Notes under the pieces: generated by a model
What the model was told of the DNA's origin: nothing
Databases searched by the model: none
The model's input: the letters and a program-made list of their open reading frames with translations, nothing else
Shown here: piece by piece, positions 832 to 7,967 of the stretch
Layout: each line of letters opens with the position of its first letter
How positions within the stretch are numbered: position 1 is the stretch's first letter
Source: Bacteroidia bacterium
GTDB taxonomy: Bacteria > Bacteroidota > Bacteroidia > Bacteroidales > VadinHA17
DNA: 32,362 nucleotides
Assembly (NCBI GenBank): GCA_026391555.1
Contig: JAPLEB010000107.1
Coordinates: 1 to 32,362, forward strand
Direction: 5' to 3'
Translations under genes and position numbers: made by a program

Positions 832-862
832 TTTGGCATTTTTAATTAATGCATTACTTTTG
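832..862 (+). promoter_or_regulatory. Bacteroidota-type promoter ahead of the Phe/Tyr leader
   Basis: TTTG at 832-835 and TACTTTTG at 855-862 fit the published Bacteroides consensus TTTG / TAnnTTTG exactly, with a 19-base spacer. Transcription would start around 868-870, about 14 bases before the leader-peptide ATG at 883. Assignment is by motif and position only. Confidence 0.72.
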
Positions 863-882
863 TAAGTCAATAACGCAACCAA

Positions 883-945
883 ATGAATATTGTGTACAAA
901 TATTTTATCTCCTTTTACTACTTCTATTTTTATTTTAAAAACTGA
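883..945 (+). CDS. Phe/Tyr-rich leader peptide of the aromatic operon
   Basis: This 20-codon ORF encodes MNIVYKYFISFYYFYFYFKN: six Tyr and five Phe, with residues 11-18 an unbroken aromatic run. It begins about 14 bases after the predicted transcription start. It ends 45 bases before an intrinsic terminator that itself precedes prephenate dehydratase. This is the architecture of an amino-acid attenuator leader (as in the pheA and trp leaders of enterobacteria): scarcity of charged tRNA-Phe or tRNA-Tyr would stall the ribosome in the run and favour read-through. It is too short for ordinary gene callers. The mixed Phe and Tyr content fits an operon that feeds both branches. Function is inferred from composition and position. 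Confidence 0.85.
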   Translation: MNIVYKYFISFYYFYFYFKN

Positions 946-989
946 TTAGGGGATTTTTGTATACAGATAAATTTAATTTATATGAAAGC

Positions 990-1015
990 AAGGTCCCTCA
1001 AAGGGGCCTTTTTTT
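990..1015 (+). terminator. Attenuator terminator of the aromatic operon
   Basis: AAGGTCCC (990-997) pairs with GGGGCCTT (1003-1010), an 8-bp stem with one G-T pair and a 5-base loop. A run of T ends at 1015, 17 bases before the pheA start. A competing antiterminator is possible: AGGGGATTT (948-956), immediately after the leader stop, can pair with 990-998 in eight of nine positions, counting two G-U pairs. A ribosome finishing the leader would cover 948-956 and let the terminator form; one stalled in the aromatic codons would leave it free. The hairpin is seen; the switching is inferred. Confidence 0.82.
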
Positions 1016-1032
1016 ATAATAACATATTGATA

Positions 1033-1863
1033 ATGAAAATAACAATACAGGGAGAGAAAGGAAGCTTTCATGAAGTAGCTGCACGACAGTACTTTAATTA
1101 TGATACAATTGATATAGTGCCTTGTTCCACTTTTGACCTGACTATTAACACGCTGCTTGAAGGAAATGCAGATTTTGCTGTAATGGCAATTGAAAATGCC
1201 AGGTCGGGCAGCATTCTTTATAACTATACTCTGATAAGGGAATCAGGCATGAAAATCCTTGGTGAACACAATCTCCGGATTATTCAGAACCTTATGGCTC
1301 TTCCGGGACAGACAATCTACGACATCAAAGAAATCAGAACACACCCCATCGCGATTGCCCAATGTATGACCTTCCTGAATCAGCATCCTGGAATAACCCT
1401 CATCGAGAGCGATGATACTGCCGGAAGTGCAAGATTCATTAGCGAAAACAAGCTTAAAGGTGTTGCAGCTATTGCACCCGCTCATGCGGCAGAAATATAT
1501 GGCCTCGACATACTTGCCTCAGGAATAGAGACTTATAAGCAAAACTACACAAGGTTTCTTGTTGTAGGCAATGAAAATAAAGGGAACAAGAAAGGGAACA
1601 AGGTTTCAATCTGCTTTTCAACAGGTCATAAACCAGGGTCGCTGGCAGCTGTGCTGGTTAAGCTTGCCGAATTGCAAATAAACCTGTCAAAGATTCAGTC
1701 AGTTCCAAGGTTGAATGGCGAGTGGGAATATATGTTTTATCTTGACCTGGAATTGAATAAAAATACCAACTCTGATGTGATCAGAAGAGTACTTGAAAAT
1801 AAGACAAGCAACCTGGAGATACTCGGAGTATATTTTAAAGGAGACATGTTTTATGAAAGTTAA
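1033..1863 (+). CDS. pheA: Prephenate dehydratase
   Basis: Converts prephenate to phenylpyruvate, the committed step to phenylalanine, in the cytosol. At 276 residues it is a monofunctional enzyme: two PDT lobes (about 1-180) with the catalytic TRF at 173-175, then an ACT domain (about 190-276) with GSLAAVL at 202-208. The usual allosteric ESRP motif of the ACT domain reads QSVP here (222-225), so feedback by phenylalanine may be altered; that is inference. The start is ATG 1033, which gives the family N-terminus MKITIQGEKGSF. An in-frame ATG at 982 would place codons inside the terminator and adds unrelated residues. First gene of the five-gene aromatic operon; its 3' end overlaps the aminotransferase by 11 bases. 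Confidence 0.93.
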   Translation: MKITIQGEKGSFHEVAARQYFNYDTIDIVPCSTFDLTINTLLEGNADFAVMAIENARSGSILYNYTLIRESGMKILGEHNLRIIQNLMALPGQTIYDIKEIRTHPIAIAQCMTFLNQHPGITLIESDDTAGSARFISENKLKGVAAIAPAHAAEIYGLDILASGIETYKQNYTRFLVVGNENKGNKKGNKVSICFSTGHKPGSLAAVLVKLAELQINLSKIQSVPRLNGEWEYMFYLDLELNKNTNSDVIRRVLENKTSNLEILGVYFKGDMFYES

Positions 1864-3016
1864 ACCGGCTGATCGTACAAATAACGTACAGGAATACTAC
1901 TTCTCCCAAAAGCTTACTCAGATTGATATGATGCGAAGAGAAGGCGCTGATATCATTAACCTTGGTATTGGCAGCCCCGATCAGCCACCATCGGAAAATA
2001 CTATTAAAAGTCTGATCAAAGAAGCAAAAAAACCAACGTCACATGGCTACCAGAGTTATACAGGAATTCCTGCACTAAGAAAGGCGTTTGCAGAGTGGTA
2101 CAAAAAATATTTTCATGTTGAGTTGAATCCCGACAACGAGATTCTGCCCTTAATGGGAAGTAAGGAAGGTATAATGCATATTAGCATGGCTTTTGTCAAT
2201 TCTGGAGATGAAGTGCTTGTACCCGATCCGGGATATCCTACATATTCATCTGTAACAAACCTTGTTGGCGGTATAGTCAGAAAATATGATCTCAATGAAA
2301 AAAGGGGTTGGCTTCCCGAACTGGAAGCCCTTGAACAGAGTGATCTGAGCAGGGTAAAACTGATGTGGGTTAACTACCCTCATATGCCAACCGGAACAAA
2401 AGGATCGATGGTACTATTTGAAAAACTGGTTGCATTTTCACAGAAACACGTGATACTCCTTTGCAACGACAATCCATACAGCTTCATCTTAAATAAAGAA
2501 TATCACAGTCTCTTAGCTGTTGATGGCGCTAAAGAAACAGCGCTGGAGCTAAACTCATTAAGTAAGTCGCAGAATATGGCAGGATGGCGTATTGGAATGG
2601 TTGCGGGGCATAGCGGGTATATTAAGGAAATTCTCAAGGTTAAAAGTAATATGGACTCAGGAATGTTTTTGCCAATGCAGATGGCTGCAATTGAAGCACT
2701 TAACAATCATGAATCGTGGTATGATACAGTCAATGCTGTTTATTCAAAAAGACGGAAGATAGTTGAAGAGATTATGGTTCTGCTCGGTTGCAACTACGAT
2801 AAATCCCAGGTTGGGCTCTTCTTATGGGGACGAATTCCTGAAGAGGTACCCAATTGTGAAATATATATTGAAGAGATTTTAAATAAATCGCATGTTTTCA
2901 TTACACCGGGTTTTATTTTTGGGAAGAACGGAGAAAGGTATTTAAGAATATCACTATGTGCCAATGAAAAAAGGCTGACAGAAGCTAAAGAGAGATTAAC
3001 TTTTAATTCATATTGA
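1853..3016 (+). CDS. PLP-dependent aminotransferase, class I/II (probable aromatic or aspartate type)
   Basis: A 387-residue fold-type I aminotransferase. The Schiff-base lysine is K238 in SLSKSQNMAGWRIG. Other landmarks are NLGIGSPDQPPS near the N-terminus, PGYPTYSS, and WVNYPHMPTG, the cofactor-contacting N-Y-P-H-x-P-T-G segment. Placed between pheA and tyrA, it most likely transaminates phenylpyruvate and 4-hydroxyphenylpyruvate to Phe and Tyr. By sequence alone it could also be an aspartate or LL-diaminopimelate-type enzyme, because these subfamilies are close. The start ATG 1853 overlaps the pheA stop, and GGAG lies 12 bases upstream. A longer frame from 1793 runs inside pheA and was rejected. 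Translational coupling with pheA is likely. Confidence 0.88.
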   Translation: MKVKPADRTNNVQEYYFSQKLTQIDMMRREGADIINLGIGSPDQPPSENTIKSLIKEAKKPTSHGYQSYTGIPALRKAFAEWYKKYFHVELNPDNEILPLMGSKEGIMHISMAFVNSGDEVLVPDPGYPTYSSVTNLVGGIVRKYDLNEKRGWLPELEALEQSDLSRVKLMWVNYPHMPTGTKGSMVLFEKLVAFSQKHVILLCNDNPYSFILNKEYHSLLAVDGAKETALELNSLSKSQNMAGWRIGMVAGHSGYIKEILKVKSNMDSGMFLPMQMAAIEALNNHESWYDTVNAVYSKRRKIVEEIMVLLGCNYDKSQVGLFLWGRIPEEVPNCEIYIEEILNKSHVFITPGFIFGKNGERYLRISLCANEKRLTEAKERLTFNSY

Positions 3017-3030
3017 AAATAAAGTTTAAT

Positions 3031-3876
3031 ATGACAATTGCAGTAGTAGGAATAGGTTTGATAGGAGGATCACTTATGGTTGATCTTCGCAAACGAGGTT
3101 TTGCCGACAGAATAATCGGAGTTGACACCAATATCCATCATCAGAATATTGCACTGCTTTGCGGATTGGTTGATGAAAATGATACTCTGGAAAATGCCAT
3201 TGAAAAAAGTGATTTGATAATTCTTGCCACACCCGTTAATACAAATTGCATTATGCTACCCGGGATACTCGACAGGATAGCCGGCACTTCAAAAGTTGTA
3301 ACTGATATGGGTTCAACAAAAGCCAGTATCGCGGAAGCATCAAAAAATCATCCGTACAGGGGTCGCTATGTAGCAGTTCATCCAATGGCAGGCACCGAAT
3401 ATTCGGGTCCGCTTGCTGCTATCGGAAAATTGTTCGACTATAAAAATGCTATTATCTGCGACAAAGAACTCAGCGATCGTGATGCTCTTGAAACAGTTGA
3501 AAGAATGCTCGATATTCTGAATATGCATAAAGTGTATATGAACTCGAATGACCACGATGTGCATGTTGCCTATATATCTCATATTTCGCATATTACATCT
3601 TTCTCATTAGCGTTATGCGTGCTTGAAAAGGAACAGGAAGAACAAAACATTCTTACATTAGCCGGTGGTGGTTTTGAAAGTACCGTCCGTCTGTCTAAAA
3701 GTAACGGGGAAACATGGGCTCCGATTTTTCTTGAAAATGCTGAATTTATCCTTGAAGTAATGGACACGTATATTGATAAAATGAATTTGTTCAGAAAACT
3801 GATCTCTGACAAAGATATTAACGGTTTGAAAGCCCTGATGGAAGAGGCTAACAAGATTAGAAAAATATTGAATTAA
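3031..3876 (+). CDS. tyrA: Prephenate dehydrogenase
   Basis: Oxidatively decarboxylates prephenate to 4-hydroxyphenylpyruvate with NAD, the committed step to tyrosine. The N-terminal Rossmann fold shows AVVGIGLIGGS (glycines 7, 9 and 12) followed by an acidic residue (VDTN) at the end of strand 2, as expected for NAD preference. HPMAGTE, with H117, is the conserved substrate-site motif. The C-terminal half is the helical dimerization domain with SHISHITSFSLAL. At 281 residues it has no fused chorismate mutase or ACT domain. The start is ATG 3031, 14 bases after the aminotransferase stop; an upstream TTG at 3013 would add six residues and is less likely. The 15-base gap to the next gene supports one transcript. 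Confidence 0.92.
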   Translation: MTIAVVGIGLIGGSLMVDLRKRGFADRIIGVDTNIHHQNIALLCGLVDENDTLENAIEKSDLIILATPVNTNCIMLPGILDRIAGTSKVVTDMGSTKASIAEASKNHPYRGRYVAVHPMAGTEYSGPLAAIGKLFDYKNAIICDKELSDRDALETVERMLDILNMHKVYMNSNDHDVHVAYISHISHITSFSLALCVLEKEQEEQNILTLAGGGFESTVRLSKSNGETWAPIFLENAEFILEVMDTYIDKMNLFRKLISDKDINGLKALMEEANKIRKILN

Positions 3877-3891
3877 ATTATCTATTGAATA

Positions 3892-5007
3892 ATGGAATTA
3901 AAACTTGAGAATTCCCTGATTAAAGACTGGAGAGGTTATAAAGGAAGGCCTTTCCTTATCTCCGGCCCGTGCAGTGCCGAAACAGAAGAACAGGTGATGG
4001 AAACTGCTACACAATTAGCCAAAATAAAAGAGGTTAGTGTATTTCGCGCCGGTATCTGGAAACCAAGGACACGTCCGAATTCTTTTGAGGGAGTGGGTAT
4101 CGAAGGATTGAAATGGCTCAGGAGGGTCAAGCAGGAAACAGGTCTGCTCGTTGGTACTGAAGTGGCTAATGAAAAGCATGTTTACGAGGCTCTGAAATAT
4201 GGTATTGACATGTTATGGATCGGTGCCCGGACATCTGTTAATCCATTCACAGTTCAGGAGATATCTGATGCCCTTAACGGGGTGGATGTGATGGTGCTTG
4301 TGAAAAACCCTATTAATCCCGACATTGAGTTATGGATGGGCGCCATTGAACGTATTGCCAGAGCAGGAATTACCAGGATAGGAGCAATACATCGTGGCTT
4401 TTCCTCATATGAAAAGACATTGTACCGGAATCAGCCCAACTGGCAATTGCCTATTGAATTGCGCAGACGTATCCCCGACTTACCTATTTTGTGTGACCCA
4501 AGTCACATTGCCGGCTCAAGACAATACCTTCATGAGATTTCCCAAAAAGCAATGGATCTTAACTTTGACGGACTAATGATCGAATCACATATAGAACCTG
4601 CCAAAGCCTTAAGCGATTCCGCTCAGCAACTTACCCCAAATGATCTGAAAGAACTCTTAAGCAGGCTAATCCTGCGTAATCCAAGTACTTCTGATCCTAA
4701 GTTACTTGATGTGCTCGGTGAACTAAGGCAACAAATCGATGTGTACGATGAGCATCTTCTCGATCTTATGGAGCAACGAATGAAAGTGGCAGAAACAATC
4801 GGTCGTTATAAAAAAGAAAATAATATCACTATCTTGCAGAGCACCCGATGGGATGAAATTATAAAAAGAGTAATAACCAAAGGCCAGGCTAAAGGACTTT
4901 CATCTGAACTGATTGATACAATTTTCAAGGCAATTCACCAGGAGTCTATTAACCATCAGATGAAGGTTATGAATAACGGAGTGAAAAATCACTCCAATGA
5001 AAAATAA
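3892..5007 (+). CDS. Bifunctional DAHP synthase / chorismate mutase
   Basis: Residues 1 to about 255 are a type I-beta DAHP synthase, condensing PEP and erythrose 4-phosphate at the head of the shikimate pathway. Motifs include GPCSAE, RAGIWKPRTRPNSFEG, IGARTSVNPF, LVKNPINPD and LCDPSHIAG, the metal- and phosphate-binding elements. Residues about 270-365 are an AroQ-type chorismate mutase helix bundle with LRQQIDVYDEHLLDLMEQRM and AETIGRYKKENN. In related fusions the mutase domain also acts as the allosteric sensor for prephenate or chorismate; that is family knowledge, not seen here. The 371-residue length is normal for the fusion. This gene supplies the chorismate mutase that pheA and tyrA lack, so the operon is self-sufficient from DAHP entry to both aromatic branches except for steps encoded elsewhere. 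Confidence 0.94.
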   Translation: MELKLENSLIKDWRGYKGRPFLISGPCSAETEEQVMETATQLAKIKEVSVFRAGIWKPRTRPNSFEGVGIEGLKWLRRVKQETGLLVGTEVANEKHVYEALKYGIDMLWIGARTSVNPFTVQEISDALNGVDVMVLVKNPINPDIELWMGAIERIARAGITRIGAIHRGFSSYEKTLYRNQPNWQLPIELRRRIPDLPILCDPSHIAGSRQYLHEISQKAMDLNFDGLMIESHIEPAKALSDSAQQLTPNDLKELLSRLILRNPSTSDPKLLDVLGELRQQIDVYDEHLLDLMEQRMKVAETIGRYKKENNITILQSTRWDEIIKRVITKGQAKGLSSELIDTIFKAIHQESINHQMKVMNNGVKNHSNEK

Positions 5008-5021
5008 ATTGTAAGGAACCA

Positions 5022-6272
5022 ATGGAAAGATATGTAGAACCGTCAAAAATTAAAGGTCAACTCAAAACTCCCTCATCAAAGAGCATGACACAACGGGCTA
5101 TTGCTGCTGCTTTATTAGCCGATGGGCAAAGCATAATCCATAATCCCTCCTATTGCGACGATTCATTAGCTGCAATGAGTATAGCATGTGGCTTGGGCGC
5201 CAGGGTTGAACCACAGGCTAATGAATTGAAAATTATTGGCTCCGTTGTTTTGAAAGAGCCAAAACTGAACTGTGGCGAATCGGGTCTGGCAATCCGGATG
5301 TTCTCTCCTATTGCTGCATTGTACCCGGCAGAAATTACCATGGTTGGTGCAAATTCTCTTAAAAAGAGGCCTATGTTCATGATTGAAGAGGCTTTAAATC
5401 AGTTGGGCGTGAAGTGCACCAGTTCAGGTGGATTTCTTCCTCTTATTATTCAGGGACCAATTCTGGGAGGACATTGCGAAATTGATGGGTCAATGAGCAG
5501 TCAGTTATTAACCGGCCTGCTTATGGCATTGCCTCTTGCATCTAAAGACTCCGAAATAAAAGTCAATAACCTGAAGAGCAAACCGTACATTGACATGACT
5601 ATCCAGATACTCAAGTCATTTGGTATAACAATTCAGAATAAGGGTTATAACCTGTTTCATATTCAGGGGAATCAAAAGTACATACCTCATAACTACACAG
5701 TTGAAGGTGACTGGAGTAGCGGAGCATTCCTGCTCGTCGCGGGTGCTGTTAATGGTCATTTAAATATTCATGGCCTTCGCACAGATAGCATGCAAAGCGA
5801 TATGGCAATAATTCAAGCCTTGGAGCAAGCAGGTGCACAAATGAAAATTAGTGAAAATCAGATTGAGATTTCCAAATCAAAATTAAAAGCGTTTGAGTTT
5901 GATGCCACCGAATCGCCTGACCTCTTCCCTCCGCTTGTTGCACTGGCATCTTATTGTGATGGTGTTTCAAATATCAAAGGTGTATCAAGGCTAATATACA
6001 AAGAGAGTGACAGGGCTGCAACTCTTAAGGAAGAGTTCGGAAAGATGAACATTAAGATAGAAATAAAAGATGATCTGATGTCTGTTACCGGAGGCCGGCC
6101 ACAGGGTGCACGCGTTGAATCGCATAATGACCATCGTATTGCTATGGCAGTTACAGTTGCTGCCCTGGGAGCGACAGGCAGAGTTTATATCAGGGACTCT
6201 CAGTGTGTTGCAAAATCGTATCCCGGATTTTATAATGATCTCAGAAATCTTGGAGTAGTGGTTCATGAATGA
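5022..6272 (+). CDS. aroA: 3-phosphoshikimate 1-carboxyvinyltransferase (EPSP synthase)
   Basis: Transfers enolpyruvyl from PEP to shikimate 3-phosphate. It is a 416-residue two-domain enzyme. The S3P-binding lysine motif reads PSSKSMTQRA (K20, R25). EGDWSSGAFLLVAGA and YKESDRAATLKEE carry the mid-chain conserved acids. NDHRIAMA (369-376) is the C-terminal arginine motif, and CVAKSYPGFYNDL is the terminal motif. The PEP-loop usually written G-N-A-G-T-A-M-R is replaced by CGESGLAIR (84-92), so this is a diverged subclass. The fold signatures around it are intact, so I keep the call. Last gene of the operon, 14 bases after the DAHP synthase. A new promoter lies about 80 bases downstream. Confidence 0.9.
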   Translation: MERYVEPSKIKGQLKTPSSKSMTQRAIAAALLADGQSIIHNPSYCDDSLAAMSIACGLGARVEPQANELKIIGSVVLKEPKLNCGESGLAIRMFSPIAALYPAEITMVGANSLKKRPMFMIEEALNQLGVKCTSSGGFLPLIIQGPILGGHCEIDGSMSSQLLTGLLMALPLASKDSEIKVNNLKSKPYIDMTIQILKSFGITIQNKGYNLFHIQGNQKYIPHNYTVEGDWSSGAFLLVAGAVNGHLNIHGLRTDSMQSDMAIIQALEQAGAQMKISENQIEISKSKLKAFEFDATESPDLFPPLVALASYCDGVSNIKGVSRLIYKESDRAATLKEEFGKMNIKIEIKDDLMSVTGGRPQGARVESHNDHRIAMAVTVAALGATGRVYIRDSQCVAKSYPGFYNDLRNLGVVVHE

Positions 6273-6350: not shown

Positions 6351-6383
6351 CTTGTTGATATTTTAAATTTATAATTATATTTG
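6351..6383 (+). promoter_or_regulatory. Bacteroidota-type promoter ahead of the Trp leader
   Basis: TATATTTG at 6376-6383 matches TAnnTTTG exactly. Upstream, TTG at 6352-6354 or GTTG at 6354-6357 gives a spacer of 21 or 18 bases; the -33 box is weaker than in the aromatic promoter. Transcription would start near 6390. The rest of the 333-base gap between aroA and trpB is accounted for by the hairpin, leader peptide and terminator listed below. Confidence 0.6.
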
Positions 6384-6398
6384 TCGTCATGAACCGAG

Positions 6399-6414
6399 TC
6401 CCGACTCGTCGGGA
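6399..6414. repeat. Short palindromic hairpin in the 5' leader
   Basis: TCCCGA (6399-6404) and TCGGGA (6409-6414) form a 6-bp stem with loop CTCG. The element is GC-rich in AT-rich surroundings. It would sit at the very 5' end of the trp leader RNA, just after the predicted start site. It could be an intergenic palindrome of the kind scattered in these genomes, an RNA-stabilizing hairpin, or a weak terminator after aroA. No T-run follows. Confidence 0.45.
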
Positions 6415-6447
6415 TGAGTTCCATTATACTATTAAAATCAATTATTA

Positions 6448-6525
6448 ATGATGAAAACAAAAGTGTTTTATATGTGGTCTTGGTGCAGCTTAAAAAATTA
6501 TGCTGTGAAACAAGTCGCTATATAA
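6448..6525 (+). CDS. Trp-containing leader peptide ahead of trpB
   Basis: A 25-codon ORF (24 if ATG 6451 is used) with the core MWSWC at residues 9-13, so two of the rarest codon, TGG, sit almost side by side. It is followed 26 bases later by a strong intrinsic terminator and then by a tryptophan synthase beta gene. That order, with Trp codons early in a short ORF, is the classic trp attenuator plan. One leader hairpin can form between 6484-6489 (TGCAGC) and 6502-6507 (GCTGTG), right after the Trp codons. A stalled ribosome would mask its first arm. Function is inferred. Confidence 0.82.
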   Translation: MMKTKVFYMWSWCSLKNYAVKQVAI

Positions 6526-6550
6526 CATTTATAAGATATTTATTTATATA

Positions 6551-6578
6551 GGCACGCTGTTCGCAGCGTGCCTTTTTT
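6551..6578 (+). terminator. Attenuator terminator ahead of trpB
   Basis: GGCACGCTG (6551-6559) and CAGCGTGCC (6564-6572) form a perfect 9-bp GC-rich stem closed by the stable loop TTCG and followed by six T (6573-6578). It stands 27 bases before the trpB start, so constitutive termination here would silence trpB. A weak alternative pairing exists between 6485-6489 (GCAGC) and 6556-6560 (GCTGT). I did not find a long antiterminator. Confidence 0.88.
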
Positions 6579-6605: not shown

Positions 6606-7967
6606 ATGGAAAAGATCTTCAAAATTTTATTAAGCGAAAATGAAATGCCGAGGCAATGGTATAATATCGTGGCTGATATGCCTAACAAACCAATGCCACC
6701 ACTGGATCCTGTTACAAAGAAACCGATAGGACCCGATAGCCTGTCAGCAATCTTCCCAATGGAGTTGATTAAACAGGAGGTATCGCAGGAACGATACATT
6801 GATATCCCTGAAGAGGTGCTTGATCTCTACAAGACCTATCGCCCATCTCCTATACACAGGGCATATAAACTCGAGAAAACTCTTGGTACAAAATGCAAAA
6901 TATATTATAAGTATGAAGGAGGTAACTACTCCGGGTCACATAAAGCGAATACCGCTATTCCCCAGGCATATTATAATAAGATGGAAGGTGTGAAAAGAAT
7001 TACAACAGAGACCGGGGCAGGGCAATGGGGAAGTGCGATGAGTTTTGCCTGTAACTATTTCGGTCTCGAGCTACAGGTATTTATGGTAAAAGTCAGCTAC
7101 GATCAGAAACCAGGCAGAAAACTGATGATGAACACATATAACGCAACCGTTATACCGTCTCCAAGTAACCTTACTCAAGCCGGTCGTGCCATACTAAAAG
7201 ACAATCCTGATTCCCCGGGAAGTCTTGGAATTGCCATTTCTGAGGCAATAGAGATGGCTGTCAAAGATCCATATACGAAATACTCACTTGGCAGTGTCCT
7301 TAACCATGTTCTTCTTCATCAGACAATTATCGGACAGGAGGCATTGCTCCAAATGGCAAAAACAGATGATTATCCCGATATTGTGATCGGTTGCTTCGGA
7401 GGAGGATCTAACTTTTCAGGAATTGCTTTTCCTTTTCTGCGCGAGAACCTGGTAAACGGCAAAAAGACAAGGCTCCTCACTATTGAGCCATCATCTTGCC
7501 CTAAACTGTCAAGAGGAAAATTTATGTACGACTTCGGAGATAGTGCAGGAATGACTCCTCTTCTCCCAATGTATACTCTTGGGCATAATTTTATTCCTGA
7601 GAAAATTCATGCAGGAGGTTTGAGATATCATGGGGCCGGAGTTCTGCCAAGTCAGCTTCTTAAAGATGGCCTTATTGAGGTTAAAGCAAAAATGCAGAAG
7701 GAATGTTTTGAGGCGGGAGTAATATTTGCCCGCTCAGAGGGAATTATTCCTGCTCCTGAATCGACCTACGCTATTGCCGGTGCATTTGAGGAGGCCAGGA
7801 TTGCCGACAAGGAGGGTATCGCGAAGACAATTCTGTTTAACCTGAGCGGTCATGGCCATTTAGACCTTACCGCGTATGAAAAGTATTTTGAGAATAACCT
7901 GCCCGATCATGAACTGACCTGTGCAGAGATCGAAGATGCAATTTCGAAAATCAAGATCCCTGCCTGA
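6606..7967 (+). CDS. trpB: TrpB2-type tryptophan synthase beta chain
   Basis: PLP enzyme joining indole and serine to give tryptophan. At 453 residues, with the N-terminal extension RQWYNIVADMPNKPMPPLDP, it belongs to the TrpB2 (TrpB-like) subfamily rather than the shorter TrpB1 that pairs tightly with TrpA. PLP lysine K113 lies in GNYSGSHKANTA. TETGAGQWGSA is the substrate-loop motif, GCFGGGSNFSG the phosphate-binding glycine loop, and EGIIPAPESTYA and NLSGHGHLD complete the set. No trpA or other trp gene is adjacent. TrpB2 proteins are suspected of indole salvage or of serving in Trp synthesis with an atypical partner. The Trp leader and terminator just upstream argue that here it responds to tryptophan supply. 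Confidence 0.92.
   Translation: MEKIFKILLSENEMPRQWYNIVADMPNKPMPPLDPVTKKPIGPDSLSAIFPMELIKQEVSQERYIDIPEEVLDLYKTYRPSPIHRAYKLEKTLGTKCKIYYKYEGGNYSGSHKANTAIPQAYYNKMEGVKRITTETGAGQWGSAMSFACNYFGLELQVFMVKVSYDQKPGRKLMMNTYNATVIPSPSNLTQAGRAILKDNPDSPGSLGIAISEAIEMAVKDPYTKYSLGSVLNHVLLHQTIIGQEALLQMAKTDDYPDIVIGCFGGGSNFSGIAFPFLRENLVNGKKTRLLTIEPSSCPKLSRGKFMYDFGDSAGMTPLLPMYTLGHNFIPEKIHAGGLRYHGAGVLPSQLLKDGLIEVKAKMQKECFEAGVIFARSEGIIPAPESTYAIAGAFEEARIADKEGIAKTILFNLSGHGHLDLTAYEKYFENNLPDHELTCAEIEDAISKIKIPA

Follow-up and report, generated by a model that had tools for sequence, protein, structure and literature searches.

The operon pheA-aminotransferase-tyrA-aroF-aroA near the left end of the window (the whole stretch of DNA analyzed, 32362 bases on contig 106 of a genome of 3.5 Mb in 164 contigs) appears to be controlled by a classical ribosome-mediated attenuator that reads charged tRNA-Phe and tRNA-Tyr together, a reading to which a probability of about 0.93 is given. 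A short leader RNA very probably switches the genes off by its folding when phenylalanine and tyrosine are plentiful. Comparison and computation reveal the leader, the promoter box, three mutually exclusive helices, covariation, and conservation of the aromatic codons. The points of interest are the breadth of the system, the mixed reading of Phe and Tyr, the serial copies in relatives, and the coupling of transcription and translation that it implies. The region contains the following parts.

172-777, hisIE, at the left end of the window and directly 5' of the leader region (profile search).
832..862, forward strand, Bacteroidota-type promoter recognized in the sequence, with TTTG at 832-835, 19 nt, and TAnnTTTG (TACTTTTG) at 855-862.
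883..945, forward strand, leader peptide ORF MNIVYKYFISFYYFYFYFKN, with 6 Tyr and 5 Phe among 20 residues, from ATG 883 to the stop codon TGA 943-945.
892..900, forward strand, segment 1 (GUGUACAAA, codons 4-6), the protector arm pairing with 956-964 (covariation and minimum-free-energy fold).
949..960, forward strand, segment 2 (GGGGAUUUUUGU), the antiterminator arm, 3 nt past the stop codon (alignment, pairing tests, and folding).
988..998, forward strand, segment 3 (GCAAGGUCCCU), the partner of either segment 2 (antiterminator) or segment 4 at 1002-1010 (terminator) (alignment, pairing tests, and folding).
990..1015, forward strand, intrinsic terminator, a 9-bp stem 990-998/1002-1010 with a 3-nt loop and 7 T (1009-1015).
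1033..1863, forward strand, pheA, prephenate dehydratase (NF008865, 206 bits, below the cut-off of 219).
1853..3016, forward strand, aminotransferase of the LL-DAP/aspartate aminotransferase superfamily (best models under their cut-off).
3013..3876, forward strand, tyrA, prephenate dehydrogenase (NF006307, 316 bits, above the cut-off of 295).
3892..5007, forward strand, aroF-CM, DAHP synthase with a chorismate mutase domain (best models under their cut-off).
5022..6272, forward strand, aroA, EPSP synthase, the last gene of the close-packed cluster (TIGR01356, above its cut-off).

The promoter that the sequence-only reading had placed before the leader is borne out as one of the Bacteroidota type. 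Its two elements match the promoter consensus of this phylum, a -33-type TTTG and a -7 box TAnnTTTG, a form that was assessed by eye and by pattern. The -7 box is almost invariant in an alignment of 50 loci from close relatives, and of 146 single-unit loci, 102 have a TAnnTTTG box no more than 70 nt before the leader ORF, compared to 155 of 3660 shuffled windows. A scan for promoters of the E. coli type finds two sites, where shuffles average 3.9, and neither of them is the leader promoter. Transcription of the leader RNA is expected to start near 868-870. The 20-codon leader with six Tyr and five Phe is likewise present as claimed and, as is typical for ribosome-mediated attenuators, is a short ORF rich in codons for the amino acids that the pathway produces. 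The densest 12-residue Phe/Tyr stretch of the window reaches 10 of 12, a density that none of 5000 dinucleotide shuffles of the 300-nt upstream region attains; the raw aromatic count of the leader is matched in 14 of 5000.

For the close relatives, a 49-row version of the alignment served for the leader codons and a set of 48 loci for covariation and folding. L053, in which the exact anchor is absent, is excluded from the covariation and fold sets, and L096, a near copy of L003, is left out of the covariation, codon, and fold counts. The promoter box, the post-stop element, and both arms of the terminator are conserved in the 50 aligned loci. A lack of aromatic codon conservation in close relatives had been named as a refutation of the attenuator, and this test is passed strongly: of the 382 filled cells for the eight core codons in the 49 aligned leaders, 376 specify Phe or Tyr. 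Across the loci, both residues occur at every one of the eight positions, with variation between TTT and TTC and between TAT and TAC. This is the pattern to be expected if a ribosome must read Phe or Tyr codons there while the exact peptide is unimportant, and conservation at the codon level suggests that the ORF is translated. The ORF could instead encode a functional small hydrophobic peptide, given that it is aromatic-rich and widely conserved, but this is most improbable: residue order and length differ between lineages, and it is the Phe/Tyr content and the RNA pairing that are kept.

Past the stop codon, the RNA contains, in this order, GGGGAUUUUUGUAUAC (949-964), an AU-rich hairpin, GCAAGGUCCCU (988-998), and AGGGGCCUU followed by the T run (1002-1015). 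The intrinsic terminator claimed before pheA is confirmed by its sequence, which places it between the leader and the first structural gene, and by a terminator scan of 600-1300, in which this hairpin alone is found, compared to a shuffle mean of 0.4. In the antiterminator, GGGGAUUUUUGU pairs with GCAAGG(G)UCCC (949-960 with 988-997), and this helix and the terminator are mutually exclusive. Because the helix of segments 2 and 3 uses G-U pairs, segment 3 is able to complement the terminator arm as well. The end of segment 2 overlaps the protector arm at 956-964 (UUUGUAUAC). The earlier suggestion of a possible antiterminator directly after the stop codon thus holds for the antiterminator arm and is corrected in that the element doubles as a protector arm.

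The RNA of 868-1040 (173 nt) shows a folding z of -3.0, and the isolated helices of the window have energies of -12.0 kcal/mol for the antiterminator and -13.2 kcal/mol for the terminator. With the full-length RNA of the window at equilibrium, the terminator forms in every masked state tried. Since the completed terminator hairpin wins in each of these states, induction would require the antiterminator to form first, during transcription, and this need is the main weakness of the purely computed argument.

From this anatomy we infer that the leader is translated, that ribosomes stall on it, exactly where their footprint lies, that transcription terminates, and how the system responds to each amino acid. 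With ample Phe and Tyr, the ribosome would reach the stop codon and cover ~949-957; with this stretch covered, 990-998 would pair with 1002-1010, and transcription would end near 1015. A shortage of either one would stall the ribosome in the first half of the aromatic run, where it would mask segment 1, leaving 949-960 free for 988-997, so that no terminator would form and the operon would be transcribed. In an untranslated leader, segment 1 would pair with 956-964, the antiterminator would be blocked, and transcription would end. A ribosome stalled at codons 15-18, late in the run, would not mask segment 1, which would count against the attenuator model. Folding of the 48 loci gives the antiterminator (at least 7 pairs) in all 48 when the early leader is masked and the RNA runs to the end of segment 3, and the terminator in all 48 when a ribosome occupies the stop codon; in ribosome-free RNA, the counts are 46 of 48 for the protector and 47 of 48 for the terminator.

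Covariation of the protector helix, with pairs counted directly, supports the attenuator structure. The partner site UUUGUAUAC differs from the consensus in 18 of 48 loci; set against their own leader segment, 15 of these variants pair better than the consensus would, 3 pair equally well, and 0 pair worse. Protector arms form a mean of 8.4 of 9 pairs with their own partner, compared to 7.6 with a differing partner from other loci, and the observed pairing sum is reached in 0 of 2000 permutations, with the limits that shared ancestry stays in the permutations and shuffles and that some loci are near copies. Covarying pairs include GUGUGCAAA/UUUGUACAC (L054), GUACACAAC/UUUGUGUAC (L002), and AUAUACAAC/GUUGUAUAU (L091). 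Some of these substitutions also change the leader peptide (Val-Tyr becoming Val-His, Ile-His, or Leu-His) in step with the post-stop sequence ~60 nt away.

In a pairing test that took only close units with a detected terminator, the antiterminator is significant against shuffled versions of segment 2 in 44 of 44 units at p ≤ 0.05 and in 42 at p ≤ 0.01. The protector helix, which is exclusive with the antiterminator in the close relatives, reaches p ≤ 0.05 in a single-locus duplex test in 37 of 44 close units and goes undetected in most distant ones, 13 of 65 being significant; for this reason, the protector may be a feature of the genus. A pattern of the post-stop element and terminator arm gives 37 matches in 36 of the 117 family genomes, all from the window's genus (1 of 15 genera) and all directly before pheA by comparison of coordinates with the PheA matches; a reversed control pattern has no match anywhere in the 117 genomes. 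Among these family genomes, the exact post-stop element is confined to the window's genus; leader plus terminator is class-wide in reach.

The claim that the leader precedes pheA and four further aromatic genes is upheld by the profile search, which assigns the aminotransferase, tyrA, aroF-CM, and aroA. From pheA to aroA, the genes overlap or lie at most 15 nt apart, and the gene of a TrpB-like enzyme is next, 333 nt further with its start at 6606. The aminotransferase start at ATG 1853 was taken from the sequence; the profile search used 1793-3013. The gene order pheA-aminotransferase-tyrA-aroF is found in 41 of 44 long loci (named genome records), with aroA next in 30 of these. An in-frame AUG at 982, within the leader region, at which the mechanical ORF starts, was rejected as the start of pheA: its frame is open and in frame in 10 of the 30 aligned loci with an AUG there, the window included. 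With no conservation of that frame, the most likely start of pheA is 1033. The same genome bin contains a second pheA on contig 143 (L031), cut by the contig end and showing 87% identity over 140 residues; its leader is nearly identical and one residue longer, and hisG lies ~7 kb upstream. This copy perhaps comes from a related strain that was binned together.

The position of hisIE directly upstream in the window, in an AT-rich region, offers another explanation, in which the terminator merely marks the end of the preceding his operon and the aromatic ORF arose by chance in a T-rich spacer; a hisIE match within ~5 kb of pheA, on either side, in 32 of the 44 long loci fits the same picture. 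This is nevertheless very unlikely, since the density of the aromatic ORF is far over that of shuffles, its conservation is at the amino acid level with synonymous change, the promoter box sits between the his genes and the leader, the units are retained in distant relatives, and a conserved antiterminator would be needless for a plain terminator.

Alternative helices are also used by T-boxes, riboswitches, and RNA-binding proteins, any of which could drive a switch between terminator and antiterminator in place of the ribosome. Such systems would not conserve an aromatic ORF, and a search of the whole window gives no Rfam family at its gathering score, neither a T-box leader nor an amino-acid riboswitch; a sensor of another kind is scarcely credible here, and the ribosome remains the preferred one. 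In a permissive Rfam scan, the sole cis-regulatory leader is Phe_leader (RF01859), which at 19.5 bits and an E-value of 0.54 is far under its cut-off of 55, and the window is thus not assigned to this family; two sRNA families have better E-values and are also under cut-off.

The enterobacterial pheA leader consists of a Phe-rich leader before pheA, alternative helices, and a terminator. The window resembles it in that the Rfam model can be aligned over its full length to 895-1017. In contrast to the enterobacterial system, the window leader mixes Tyr with Phe, the operon adds tyrA, aroF, and aroA, and the promoter is of the Bacteroidota type with no evident Shine-Dalgarno sequence. The enterobacterial thr and ilvGMEDA leaders (thrL and ilvL) read more than one amino acid that their operon makes. 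They are similar to the window in joining several amino acids in one leader and differ from it in the amino acids and the phylum. The contrast drawn earlier with single-amino-acid enterobacterial leaders accordingly keeps its force for the mixed Phe/Tyr reading and loses it for novelty in kind.

Relatives of PheA are present in 179 of 393 sampled genomes of the order, 94 of 117 genomes of the family, and 337 of 392 sampled genomes of the phylum. The loci examined are part of these, better PheA matches first, and comprise 119 loci at the order and family levels, of which the 116 with at least 300 nt upstream entered the upstream ORF test and 3 shorter ones were dropped. A Phe/Tyr-rich ORF lies upstream of pheA in 101 of the 116 at p ≤ 0.01 and in 106 at p ≤ 0.05. 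The 10 remaining upstream regions are without a significant aromatic ORF; by eye, L015, L103, and L105 keep a weaker or GTG-started leader, and L103, with a shorter leader (MNAVYNISFFFYLKNI) and a similar post-stop element, only falls below the density threshold. Five genomes of one related genus (L098-L102), whose PheA is 65 to 66% identical to that of the window, lack leader and terminator upstream of pheA, which there closely follows another gene, in L099 identified as LeuB (TIGR00169, 148 bits over 120 residues of the fragment).

The search of relatives for a Tyr/Phe-rich ORF plus hairpin before pheA, proposed in the sequence-only reading, succeeds: under one rule, aromatic leader-plus-terminator units are found in 158 of 183 loci, mostly of Bacteroidia, compared to a mean of 0.1 of 183 after dinucleotide shuffling. 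L188-L232 stand outside the phylum-level table; 34 of 44 of these loci follow the same rule, and the set overlaps with the genus counted above. L184, L185, L219, and L257 have no usable match in the phylum-level table. In the phylum sample L120-L167, made up of the better PheA matches with near copies included and with leaders judged from the table, 44 of 46 loci of the same class or closer have an aromatic leader, the exceptions being L165 and L167. Other classes of the phylum show one in 6 of 20 scored loci (L132, L152, L168, L169, L171, and L172), and 8 of 11 loci from named Bacteroidota whose PheA is less than 51% identical (L233-L241, L243, and L265) have leader plus terminator by the rule. 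Outside the Bacteroidota, an aromatic ORF is found in 0 of 22 loci (L242, L244-L256, L258-L264, and L266), where a mean G+C of 0.58, compared to 0.34 inside the phylum, alone disfavours Phe and Tyr codons; for L255, counted among the 22, the phylum is not stated.

The antiterminator extends to the class level, with 102 of 116 units at p ≤ 0.05 and a mean of -16.1 kcal/mol, compared to -11.0 kcal/mol with swapped partners; 14 of the 116 are without a significant antiterminator. A first, narrower test had given 33 of 65 distant units at p ≤ 0.05. That test was limited to sequence beginning 12 nt before the stop codon ends, and after its result the region was widened to begin after the last aromatic codons, because the GGG arm sits in the last leader codons in many relatives. 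The two sets also differ in composition: class-level loci are included only in the second, where some overlapping ORFs have a terminator in common.

Codon content alone cannot tell which tRNA limits, and TTT and TAT codons readily intermingle where the sequence is AT-rich; Phe codons alone would look like the enterobacterial pheA leader. A leader that senses a general slow-down of translation or a single amino acid, rather than Phe and Tyr jointly, is for all that unlikely. Among 126 distinct ORFs from outside the genus that pass the density rule (terminator not required), 124 contain both Phe and Tyr and 121 at least two of each, the two residues exchange at conserved positions, and the operon makes both amino acids. 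These data argue for the joint reading of Phe and Tyr. One Trp occurs in 44 of the 126 ORFs, which only hints that Trp could be sensed as well.

Two aromatic leader-plus-terminator units in series precede pheA in L011, L014, L018, L042, L028, L050, L104, L108, L111, L134, and L235. The tandem rule selects 12 loci, of which 11 are counted, L120 being dropped for a first ORF that is not credible; one genus accounts for four of the 11 and another for two, so that ~seven lineages are represented. The tandem arrangement is not found in the window itself. A TAnnTTTG box is present at the first leader in 5 of the 11 loci (L104, L108, L111, L134, and L235) and at neither leader in 6, and the second leader has a box of its own in 0 of 11. 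The tandem loci are read as two successive attenuators for one set of amino acids behind a single putative promoter, with direct support in five. Tandem attenuators are described for Salmonella mgtCBR, which, as far as the available part of the source goes, resembles the tandem units in having two short ORFs and attenuation in one leader (PMC3641672). The relatives differ from mgtCBR in that both leaders are aromatic and of one kind and the operon is biosynthetic.

A literature search gives no description of a Phe/Tyr leader in Bacteroidota within the accessible portions of the sources, and earlier cases may be contained in supplements. A survey of attenuation across bacteria by Lopatovskaya et al. 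in 2010 may already list cases from Bacteroidetes. For Flavobacterium psychrophilum, the accessible text of one study gives strong clues for leader-peptide attenuation before amino-acid operons and describes 5' elements before pheA and hisG that are common to this species and other Flavobacteriaceae (PMC9723704). The pheA element of the Flavobacteriaceae shares phylum and gene with the one analyzed here; that text, in its accessible part, contains neither leader sequence nor codon content, whereas here the element is resolved into parts and traced across the class. The view that such control is poorly described in this phylum therefore stands for the Phe/Tyr leader and gives way, in light of the F. 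psychrophilum clues, where it would mean wholly undescribed. In Bacteroides thetaiotaomicron, short ORFs reminiscent of leader peptides are mentioned in the part of the source at hand (PMC7366714), and short leader genes have been counted in many phyla, including Bacteroidetes, for another purpose, according to the available part of another (PMC4833913). As stated in the accessible part of a 2010 paper, leader-peptide systems had to its authors' knowledge been shown only in Proteobacteria and Actinobacteria, to which Firmicutes were added (PMC2965389).

For the class Bacteroidia as a whole, one ancestral attenuator for the chorismate branch, reading Phe and Tyr (often with one Trp codon) and doubled in series behind one promoter in several lineages, is a tentative proposal with slightly less than an even chance. 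If true, serial doubling would sharpen the response multiplicatively, and a class-wide attenuator would imply tight coupling of transcription and translation in Bacteroidota. Because classical attenuation needs a ribosome close behind RNA polymerase, its wide conservation leads one to expect that transcription and translation are coupled, in a phylum whose promoters and translation initiation differ from those of E. coli. Bacteroidota mostly initiate translation without Shine-Dalgarno pairing. Aromatic leaders with terminators recur across Bacteroidia. The window provides a testable anatomy for the pheA 5' element, apparently in print only as a structured element in Flavobacteriaceae, and would supply a native aromatic-amino-acid sensor for these bacteria.

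Leaders for other amino acids lie nearby and in relatives, and the His and Trp leaders suggest that attenuation is common for amino-acid control in these bacteria. In the window, one such unit follows the aromatic operon.

6376-6578, second attenuator-like unit, before the TrpB-like gene, with the leader MMKTKVFYMWSWCSLKNYAVKQVAI at 6448-6525 and a strong terminator at 6551-6578.

The leader MMKTKVFYMWSWCSLKNYAVKQVAI has a Trp-Ser-Trp motif, and 27 of 30 relatives have a Trp-pair leader in the corresponding position (raw count). Upstream of hisG of the same genome bin (contig 143, L275) lie MNYKISHHHSHTCSQARR and a terminator. By rule and as a raw count, leaders with a run of His precede hisG in 6 of 17 loci (L275, L269, L270, L272, L274, and L279); a terminator is detected at 5 of these 6. 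Leaders with a Trp pair or run precede trpE in 3 of 10 loci, namely, TNWCWQ in L284, IWWWQ in L288, and TNWCWW in L291, 2 of the 3 with a detected terminator (raw count).
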